In this document: piece by piece, positions 7,192-9,842 of the stretch
Numbering within the stretch: position 1 is the stretch's first letter
How the letters are laid out: each line of letters begins with the position of its first letter
Notes under the pieces: model-generated
Told to the model about the DNA's origin: nothing
Database searches by the model: none
The model's input: the letters and a program-made list of their open reading frames with translations, nothing else
Source of the DNA: Acidobacteriaceae bacterium
GTDB lineage: Bacteria > Acidobacteriota > Terriglobia > Terriglobales > Acidobacteriaceae
Assembly: GCA_030037475.1 (NCBI GenBank)
Contig: JASHRH010000229.1
Span: forward strand, 1 to 33,353
Direction: 5' to 3'
Length of the DNA stretch: 33,353 nt
Translations under genes and position numbers: made by a program

Positions 7192-8079
7192 TCAGCGGCC
7201 GCGCGCTTTTTCCCGCTGCAGCTCGCGCCATAACTCGCTCTTCGCGACGCCGCGCTCCCGGGCGAGGCGTTTGAGCGCGTCCTTCTCCGTCAGCCCTTCG
7301 GAGCTCTCCAGCTCCGCCAGCCGCTGGCGCACATTTCCCGGTCGATGGTTCGCCGCGTCGGCAGGCGGGCGCGCCTCGATCATCAGCACCATCTCGCCGC
7401 GCAGGTTGCGCACCTGTATCTCCTCGCGCACCTCGCGGACCCTGCCGCGGAGGTACTCTTCGTGGATTTTGGTCAGCTCGCGCGCCAGGGCCACGTGACA
7501 ATCGCCGCCCCACACCGCCTGGATGTCCTCCAGCGTGTCCAGGATGCGATGCGGCGCTTCATAGAGCACCAGCGTCGTTGGCCGCGCGAATGAGGCCGCT
7601 AATTCCTCCAGCGCGGTCCTGCGCGCGCCCCTGCGCGGCGGCAAAAAGCCCGCGAAGAAAAAGCGCTCCGTGTCCAGCCCGGAAGCCACGAGCGCCGCCA
7701 GCACGGCGCTGGGCCCGGGAATGGCGCAGACCGCGACACCGGCTTCAATGGCCGCGGCGACCAGAATCATCCCGGGATCGGAAATGCCCGGCGTGCCGGC
7801 GTCGGTGACCACCGCAATGCGCGCGCCGTGGCGGAGCTGTTCCAGCAGCTCGCGGCTGCGATCCGCCTCGTTGTGCTCGTGGCTGCTGATCACCGGCGTG
7901 AAGATGCCGTAGCGGTCCAGCAGCTTGCGGGTCTGGCGCGTGTCCTCGCAGGCGATGCGATCGACGCCGCGCAGCACCCGCAGCGCGCGCAGCGTGATGT
8001 CTTCGAGATTTCCGATCGGGGTGGCGACGATGTAGAGACCGGGGGCGAGCGACGGATGAGTCTCGTTAGTCTCGCTCAT
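7192..8079 (-). CDS. rsmI: 16S rRNA (cytidine1402-2'-O)-methyltransferase RsmI
   Basis: Predicted 295-aa cytoplasmic enzyme that 2'-O-methylates C1402 in the 16S rRNA decoding centre using S-adenosylmethionine. It has the tetrapyrrole-methylase fold with family blocks in order: YIVATPIGNLEDIT (16-29), ACEDTRQTRKLL (44-54), SSHEHNE (65-71), TDAGTPGISDPG (92-103) and IPGPSA (120-125). The helical C-terminal tail (about 258-292) is also typical. Length is normal for the family. The start lies inside the end of the upstream M50-like gene (14-bp overlap), so the two are translated as a coupled pair. I see no other good start. Confidence 0.95.
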   Translation of the reverse strand: MSETNETHPSLAPGLYIVATPIGNLEDITLRALRVLRGVDRIACEDTRQTRKLLDRYGIFTPVISSHEHNEADRSRELLEQLRHGARIAVVTDAGTPGISDPGMILVAAAIEAGVAVCAIPGPSAVLAALVASGLDTERFFFAGFLPPRRGARRTALEELAASFARPTTLVLYEAPHRILDTLEDIQAVWGGDCHVALARELTKIHEEYLRGRVREVREEIQVRNLRGEMVLMIEARPPADAANHRPGNVRQRLAELESSEGLTEKDALKRLARERGVAKSELWRELQREKARGR

Positions 8080-9214
8080 TGCCGTTGCGCTCCAGGCGCC
8101 GATACTCGGCCAGCAGGCCCATGCTGCTGCTCAGGTTCTGCCAGGTCACGATGCCCACCACGCGGCCGCTTTCCGCCACCGGGATCAGCGAGAGGCGCCC
8201 GCTGCCGATGCGGCGGATGAGCACGCCCAGCGAGTCCTCAGGCTGCGCTACCTGGAACGCTCTCGACATGATCGACTGAATGTAGCCGTTGCCTTCATTG
8301 CGCATTGCCTGGACGATGCCCTGCCGCGACACCACGCCGACCAGATTGGGCCCGCGCACCACCGGGAAATCGTCCTGGAGACTGTGGATGGCCTTGTACA
8401 GCGCATCGGAGAATGTGTCCGAGGGCGAGAGCGTGTCGAAGTCGGTCAGCATGATGTCCTTCATCCGCACCGTTTCCACGACGCTCTGAAAGAGCACACC
8501 CTGGTCTTCCAGCTGCGCGCCGATGAAGATGAAGAAGCCGCCCATGATGAGCCAGGGGCTGAGGCTTCCGGCCAGATGCGTGTTCGGCAGCGCCAGCAGG
8601 GCCAGGCCCACGACCACCGCGGCAATGCCGACCATTTGTCCGAGTCCCGAAGCCGCGCGCGTGGCCTGCGCCGTACCCCTGGTCCTCGAAAACGCACTGC
8701 GCAGCAGCCGCCCCGCATCCAGCGGATAGGCCGGGATCACGTGCAGCGCCGCCAGCACCACATTCAGCCACACGGTGGAGCGCATGAGGTGCGAGGGCGT
8801 CACCAGCGGCATGGCCGCAACGGGCACCTGCGCGGTCGCGCCCACGATGAGCGCTGCCACCACCCCGGCAAACAGCAGGTTCGAGAGCGGTCCGGCCGTG
8901 GCCATCGCTATCTGCGTGGCTCCGCTGTCAGCCCGCTCCGCCATTTCCGGGCTGGCGTAGGAAAAGAGACCGCCAATCGGCAGCAGCAGAATACTGCGCA
9001 CGGTGAGGCCGTGATACGCAGCCGTCATGGCACGCACTGCCTCCCTCCCCAGCACCGCACCCAGCAGCAGCACCCACAGCATCACGCCACGCCATCCGGA
9101 AACCCCGGCCAGATTGGTGGAGACCGCGCAGAAAAGCAGCAGCAGCAGGAAGAAATAGTGGATGCGCAGGTGCACTCCAAACCAGCGTCCCAGGGGCAAT
9201 GACCACGCGCGCAT
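8066..9214 (-). CDS. M50 (site-2 protease)-like membrane protein with two CBS domains, catalytic motif lost
   Basis: Predicted 382-aa protein with the architecture of Rip/FtsH-independent site-2 proteases: about six membrane segments (1-230) and a C-terminal CBS pair (about 251-370). Family landmarks are GVHLRIHYFF, SILLLPIGGLFSY, ATAGPLSNLL and PAYPLDAGR (161-169). The zinc-binding HExxH reads REAVR (57-61; DNA 9032-9046), so both histidine ligands are replaced. In the second motif, N-x-x-P-x-x-P-L-D-G-G-R has become H-x-x-P-x-x-P-L-D-A-G-R. Asp166 and Glu58 remain. The protein is therefore probably not a conventional metalloprotease; it may be a pseudo-protease that binds membrane substrates or senses nucleotides through its CBS domains. 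ATG 9214 is chosen because it opens into the conserved N-terminus; upstream sequence in frame overlaps rsmD on the other strand. It is coupled to rsmI downstream. Confidence 0.88.
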   Translation of the reverse strand: MRAWSLPLGRWFGVHLRIHYFFLLLLLFCAVSTNLAGVSGWRGVMLWVLLLGAVLGREAVRAMTAAYHGLTVRSILLLPIGGLFSYASPEMAERADSGATQIAMATAGPLSNLLFAGVVAALIVGATAQVPVAAMPLVTPSHLMRSTVWLNVVLAALHVIPAYPLDAGRLLRSAFSRTRGTAQATRAASGLGQMVGIAAVVVGLALLALPNTHLAGSLSPWLIMGGFFIFIGAQLEDQGVLFQSVVETVRMKDIMLTDFDTLSPSDTFSDALYKAIHSLQDDFPVVRGPNLVGVVSRQGIVQAMRNEGNGYIQSIMSRAFQVAQPEDSLGVLIRRIGSGRLSLIPVAESGRVVGIVTWQNLSSSMGLLAEYRRLERNGNERD

Positions 9215-9275
9215 CTCGATTCCCTTCTGCCTTCCCGTTATTGTAGAGGTTCGGCCGGATTTGGCCACGGAAGCC

Positions 9276-9842
9276 ATGCGCATCATTGCCGGACAATTCC
9301 GTTCGCGCCCGCTGCACGCGTCGCGCGGCCTCGACGTGCGGCCCACCAGCGATCGCCTGCGCGAGACGCTCTTCAACGTGCTCGCGCCCCGCATCGCCGG
9401 CTCCGTGTTCCTCGACCTGTACGCCGGATCGGGCGCTGTCGGCATCGAGGCTCTGAGCCGGGGCGCGCACGAGGCGGTGTTCGTCGAACAGGCTGAGGCG
9501 TCGCTGCGGGCCATCCGCGGCAATCTCGCCTCGCTCAGCATTCGCGGCGGATACGCGCTGGAGCCGCGCAGCGTCGCCGCCGCTCTCCCGCGCCTTGTGG
9601 AGGCTGGCTGCACCGCCGATCTCGTTTTCCTCGACCCGCCTTATGCCGCTGACGAGCAATATGCGGTCGTTCTCGGGCTGCTCGGGGGCGACTGCCGTTT
9701 GCTGCTCGCACCCGATGCGCTCGTCATCGCCGAGCATGAGAAGAGACGCGCCCTCGACGAGCGCTATGGCGCGCTGCTCCGCACCCGCGTGCTGCAGCAG
9801 GGAGATGCTGCGCTGAGCTTCTACCGGATCAAGCCGGAGTGA
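9276..9842 (+). CDS. rsmD: 16S rRNA (guanine966-N2)-methyltransferase RsmD
   Basis: Predicted 188-aa SAM-dependent methyltransferase that modifies G966 of 16S rRNA in the assembled 30S subunit. The start MRIIAGQFRSRPL is the family N-terminus, followed by VRPTSDRLRETLFNVL (21-36), the SAM-binding loop FLDLYAGSGAVGIEAL (45-60) and the catalytic DPPY motif (120-123). Length is normal. ATG 9276 matches the family start exactly; an in-frame upstream start at 9162 would run into the divergent M50-like gene. It is divergent from that gene across only 61 bp, so the promoters probably overlap. Confidence 0.95.
   Translation: MRIIAGQFRSRPLHASRGLDVRPTSDRLRETLFNVLAPRIAGSVFLDLYAGSGAVGIEALSRGAHEAVFVEQAEASLRAIRGNLASLSIRGGYALEPRSVAAALPRLVEAGCTADLVFLDPPYAADEQYAVVLGLLGGDCRLLLAPDALVIAEHEKRRALDERYGALLRTRVLQQGDAALSFYRIKPE

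Follow-up and report, generated by a model that had tools for sequence, protein, structure and literature searches.

In the window, which is the whole stretch of 33,353 nucleotides that was analysed (contig JASHRH010000229.1 of an Acidobacteriaceae bacterium), one gene encodes a relative of site-2 proteases (S2Ps) in which both histidines of the zinc-binding motif HExxH are arginines. The exchange is fixed across a large lineage of soil acidobacteria, and it has probably turned a cutting enzyme into a binder or regulator of membrane proteins. Most likely the protein is a non-proteolytic, CBS-regulated binder of membrane proteins.

Pseudo-S2Ps are nearly unknown. Here, a tree assigns the inactivation to a single branch, and orthologues with HExxH are found at the same chromosomal place. 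The family includes the cultured genera Silvibacterium, Acidipila, Paracidobacterium, Occallatibacter and Acidicapsa. Two questions become testable: which role an intramembrane protease fold has after the loss of its metal, and whether a pair of arginines is able to replace a zinc ion structurally in the membrane.

The gene, its motifs and its predicted fold

The coordinates of all features are given in Table 1. The preferred start is the ATG at 9214, giving 382 aa, while a 515-aa ORF that begins at a GTG is an extended reading in the same frame. On the minus strand, the codons CTG GGG AGG GAG GCA GTG CGT GCC are read as L G R57 E58 A V R61 A; the AGG at 9046-9044 encodes R57, and the CGT at 9034-9032 encodes R61. 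This is exactly what the earlier note had described, REAVR with the Arg codons AGG and CGT. The second motif that it gave, H-x-x-P-x-x-P-L-D-A-G-R, is found as H158-V-I-P161-A-Y-P164-L-D166-A-G-R169, and Glu58 and Asp166, which it listed as retained, are both present.

Table 1. Features of the S2P-like gene and its surroundings, with positions in the window.
Feature	Position	Strand	Description and basis
Pseudo-S2P gene	8066..9214	-	382 aa; M50 membrane core and two CBS domains; ORF, Pfam, orthologues
R57-E58-A-V-R61 in place of HExxH	9032..9046	-	Minus-strand reading and orthologue alignment
P161-A-Y-P-L-D166-A-G-R169, former third zinc ligand (LDG) motif	8708..8734	-	D166 kept in 123/130; all losses in genus g80
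S2P membrane core, about residues 1-245	8480..9214	-	AF2 model, structural match to MjS2P
CBS domain 1, about residues 250-305	8300..8467	-	Pfam PF00571; matches A. fulgidus S2P CBS tandem 5g5r
CBS domain 2, about residues 310-367	8114..8287	-	Second Pfam PF00571 stretch; match to A. fulgidus S2P CBS tandem
rsmI, 16S rRNA C1402 2'-O-methyltransferase	7192..8079	-	TIGR00096, 270.8 bits (cut-off 167.9)
rsmD, 16S rRNA G966 N2-methyltransferase	9276..9842	+	TIGR00095, 134.4 bits (cut-off 117.5); conserved neighbour in both clades
Divergent intergenic region common to the S2P gene and rsmD, 61 bases	9215..9275	.	Coordinates

The domain composition, an M50 membrane core followed by two CBS domains, had also been proposed before, and Pfam agrees with it. 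Peptidase_M50 (PF02163) matches the window protein with 42.3 bits, against a cut-off of 27.2, and is matched by all 34 members of alignment A1. Alongside the two CBS stretches Pfam gives no match to a PDZ domain. At the profile level the protein matches MjS2P (3b4r) with an E-value of 3.6e-43, and in this alignment R57, R61 and D166 fall on the zinc-ligand positions of the MjS2P motifs HELGH and PMDGGR.

Further, an AF2 model was built from 70 sequences of the R clade, the branch that holds the RExxR proteins. Its membrane core is confident, with a block pLDDT mostly between 85 and 97 up to about residue 230, while the model of the CBS domains, with a pLDDT below 50, is of no use. The modelled core matches MjS2P with a Z of 23 (2.8 Å over 211 residues) and SpoIVFB with a Z of 13.6. 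In the model RExxR lies within helix 40-67, and D166 opens helix 166-179.

By sequence and by model, the protein belongs to the S2P fold family and is homologous to M50 peptidases. The presence of CBS domains and the lack of PDZ place it in group III of the S2Ps, as the group is defined in a review (PMC10202637). With MjS2P (3b4r) and group III S2Ps such as SpoIVFB (8vjl/8vjm) it shares the six-helix M50 core, the LLPIGG hairpin, PxxPLD and one or more C-terminal CBS domains. However, both of their zinc histidines are Arg in the acidobacterial protein, and judging from its sequence metal catalysis is not expected. As HExxH is absent the protein probably does not function as an M50 peptidase, even though the Asp of the third ligand, D166, is present.

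Conservation and origin of the arginine motif

Of 398 genomes sampled from the family, 369 have an orthologue, and those with names belong to the Acidobacteriaceae. RExxR is present in all ten congeners where the motif is covered (an eleventh is fragmentary), and it spans about 24 genera of Acidobacteriaceae. Among 130 distinct R-clade proteins, residue 57 is Arg without exception, residue 58 is Glu in 129, and residue 61 is Arg in 127. All six Arg codons are in use at position 57 and at least five at position 61. The complete motif is found in the window protein and in 127/130 R-clade proteins. D166 is Asp in 123, and all seven losses occur within genus g80. In the membrane core P79, G81 and P109 are invariant alongside R-E-x-x-R, and the features of the groove (LLPIGG hairpin, GP and PxxPLD) are retained. 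Pairwise dN/dS in the RExxR gene is 0.03-0.11, with both the membrane core and the CBS part constrained; the CBS part is strongly conserved and, between close pairs, shows a lower dN than the core.

Near-invariant residues at 57, 58 and 61, mixed Arg codons and such low dN/dS values indicate residues under selection, neither errors nor drift. It is true that the source genome is fragmented (453 contigs), and that an S2P without its ligands could be drifting. However, the same residues recur in ten congeners and in 130 distinct proteins from many assemblies, with intact frames and dN/dS of 0.03-0.11. That the gene carries a sequencing or assembly artefact, or is a pseudogene in decay, therefore has practically no probability, and we regard error and recent decay as refuted. 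An intact HExxH in close relatives, which the earlier note had named as the sign of a recent inactivation or an error, was found in none of them; HExxH is confined to genera that stand further away within the family, and to relatives outside it. The pseudo-protease that the note had suggested is thus a conserved one and not a recent lesion, given RExxR in the ten readable congeners and about 24 genera under strong purifying selection. The ligands have been lost while fold and sequence are under selection across the clade, and we consider a conserved pseudo-protease very probable.

Position 158 behaves differently. It is His in 68, Asn in 59 and Ser in 3 of the 130 R-clade proteins, against Asn in 36 of 38 HExxH orthologues. 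Roughly equal shares of His and Asn are what one would expect in a protein no longer selected for catalysis, and they are consistent with a relaxed selection on catalysis.

A few R-clade members depart from the common pattern. In genus g80 (L222, L223, L225-L229) both D166 and the GGR residues are missing while RExxR is invariant. Late departures from the motif itself are REVGH in two close g48 genomes (L219, L220) and RQSAQ in one g50 genome (L201). A second R-type copy in the assembly of a congener (L033, G001:C11) is nearer to Occallatibacter-type sequences and could be contamination.

About 45 other genera of Acidobacteriaceae have HExxH together with a full LDG-type motif. These proteins are about 40-48% identical to the RExxR protein and have the same domain order, and in nearly all cases their genes sit beside a divergent rsmD, as the RExxR genes do. 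The shared locus indicates that they are true orthologues; they differ from the RExxR genes in the intact zinc motif and in a downstream gene that is usually not rsmI. Elsewhere in the phylum, all 40 relatives from other families also have HExxH, so His is the ancestral state.

In a tree of 99 proteins, made by a quick search with the motif columns removed, all RExxR proteins form a single branch (SH-aLRT 100, stem 0.72) that is separate from every HExxH protein. The simplest history compatible with these sequences would be that the zinc site was lost once, in an ancestor of the R clade.

Changes of the zinc site are also seen outside the R clade. Within the HExxH clade one protein (L195, G088) has an independent QETAR together with PLAAGR, so that its zinc site has been lost in a partly convergent way. 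HQLML replaces HExxH in a single genome (L031, G016), which may be a further inactivation, and HELVQ replaces it in a single genome of another genus (L024, G015), a possible inactivation that is absent from the tree. An apparent QEPAR at L281, picked up by a motif regex, proved false: the same gene in the alignment (L191) reads HEIGH.

A proposed role and its known parallels

We propose that the ancestor was a zinc site-2 protease of the CBS type (group III) with its gene next to rsmD, that it lost its activity a single time, on the stem of a large acidobacterial clade, and that the R-E-x-x-R/D charge cluster would then have been maintained. Structurally, the two guanidinium groups may supply the +2 charge that formerly came from Zn2+, and a buried, roughly neutral R-R-E-D cluster may tie TM2 to the helix of the LD motif. 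If the RExxR cluster is a charge substitute for Zn2+, both the fold of the S2P and the groove for its substrate could persist without metal or catalysis. Functionally, a membrane-protein client would be bound by a non-cutting receptor or chaperone, or by a decoy that shields clients from intact S2Ps, and the cytoplasmic CBS pair would gate this binding in response to adenine nucleotide. Taken as a whole, an ancestral inactivation after which the protein was kept as a metal-free, client-binding pseudo-protease is the best explanation, and on balance we lean towards it. The gating of client binding by the CBS pair is a tentative element, plausible but slightly on the doubtful side.

Binding without cutting is seen in SpoIVFB, which holds uncleaved Pro-sigmaK in its groove when it is catalytically dead (E44Q), or when the wild type is purified without Zn (PMC11486902). 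According to PMC6242693, the CBS domain of SpoIVFB binds ATP in vitro (cited there), and for CBS modules of this kind Mg-ATP is reported to favour the monomeric form. In sequence, the CBS pair in the window matches 5g5r, the CBS tandem from the S2P of A. fulgidus, for which a nucleotide-bound entry (5g5x) exists. By homology to this tandem, the window pair may also bind adenine nucleotide.

The role of the arginines can be judged further from genus g80. It lacks D166, yet keeps R57, E58 and R61, so a salt bridge to D166 is not the sole reason for keeping the arginines; the idea that they exist only to pair with D166 is weakened. It seems unlikely to us that the metal-free R-E-x-x-R(/D) cluster is itself the working part, by anion or lipid binding, a proton relay or client clamping, in a separate acidobacterial family with the S2P fold and a new function. 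A new enzyme or transporter, in which R-E-x-x-R/D forms an active site without metal, a binding site (of lipid phosphate or another anion, for instance) or a proton path, could draw on the same genus, as residues invariant even there may serve a separate purpose. However, we know of no S2P-fold protein that works through such a metal-free cluster, and the neighbourhood suggests no substrate, and we hold this reading to be very improbable.

For a conserved pseudo-protease two parallels are at hand. EGY3 of plant chloroplasts is likewise a lineage-wide, highly conserved relative of S2Ps that is held to be inactive, and it has been named the only pseudoenzyme of the S2P family, found only in plants (PMC9355673). 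In contrast, the acidobacterial protein is bacterial, has CBS domains and a fixed RExxR; this distinction is drawn from the description of EGY3. The iRhoms, as described in PMC3149277, keep the inactive fold of an intramembrane protease for client binding and regulation. However, their fold is that of rhomboid, a serine protease, and they are eukaryotic and have no CBS domains, so the likeness is an analogy only.

No bacterial pseudo-S2P was found in the open-licence literature searched. None appears in the accessible part of the review of bacterial S2Ps (PMC10202637), and a review of inactive metallopeptidases mentions neither M50 nor S2P. A lineage-wide dead relative of S2Ps seems so far to have been described only in plants.

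Neighbouring genes and other S2Ps

Both rsmI and rsmD score above their NCBIfam equivalog cut-offs. The former overlaps the 3' end of the S2P gene by 14 bases (8066-8079), which makes a single unit plausible, and it lies directly downstream in most R-clade loci. However, it is missing in for example L014, L063, L068 and L112. The unit with rsmI that the earlier note described is plausible in the window, and the linkage holds in most of the clade but is not universal. As to its question whether REAVR is conserved in orthologues adjoining rsmI, RExxR is conserved across the R clade, mostly with rsmI, except that some loci lack this neighbour. Among the HExxH loci rsmI is downstream in one (L175). 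Others carry different genes: a convergent serA-like gene (D-3-phosphoglycerate dehydrogenase, from a reading of the sequence) at L240, L249, L253 and L028, and still other genes at L241, L243 and L020. Present in most R-clade loci and in nearly none of the HExxH loci, the rsmI link mostly tracks the inactivated clade.

The presence of rsmI directly downstream in most R-clade genomes, together with the high conservation and lower close-pair dN of the CBS part, would suit a CBS sensor or adaptor. Here, the membrane part would mainly be an anchor, and the CBS pair would sense nucleotide and signal to a cytoplasmic partner, perhaps linked to translation through co-expression with rsmI. However, if the membrane core were a mere anchor, it would have no need to keep R-E-x-x-R, P79, G81 and P109 invariant, and the rsmI link is absent in several R-clade genomes. 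We find this reading improbable.

The genome of the window also has intact HExxH S2Ps: one RseP-like with HELGH, two with HEAAH, and a CBS-type paralogue with HELGH. Since intact S2Ps coexist with the RExxR protein in R-clade genomes, and its fold and groove features are kept, it might act as a decoy or dominant-negative regulator, competing with the intact S2Ps, for example the RseP-like protein or the CBS-type paralogue, for the same clients, in the way that iRhoms compete with rhomboids, or forming mixed dimers with them. However, the CBS-type paralogue is only about 25% identical to the RExxR protein, and such a decoy appears rather unlikely, though it deserves some weight beside the client-binding pseudo-protease that we prefer.

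Another S2P paralogue, with HEMGH and LDGGH, was seen at L237 (G067:C1:1465600-1467200). In 20 genomes its loss seemed cleanly linked to the R clade. However, across the 398 genomes nearly all HExxH genera have this type, and its distribution among R-clade genera is patchy, so a linked loss explains nothing. The paralogue has what we take to be an EGY-like look.
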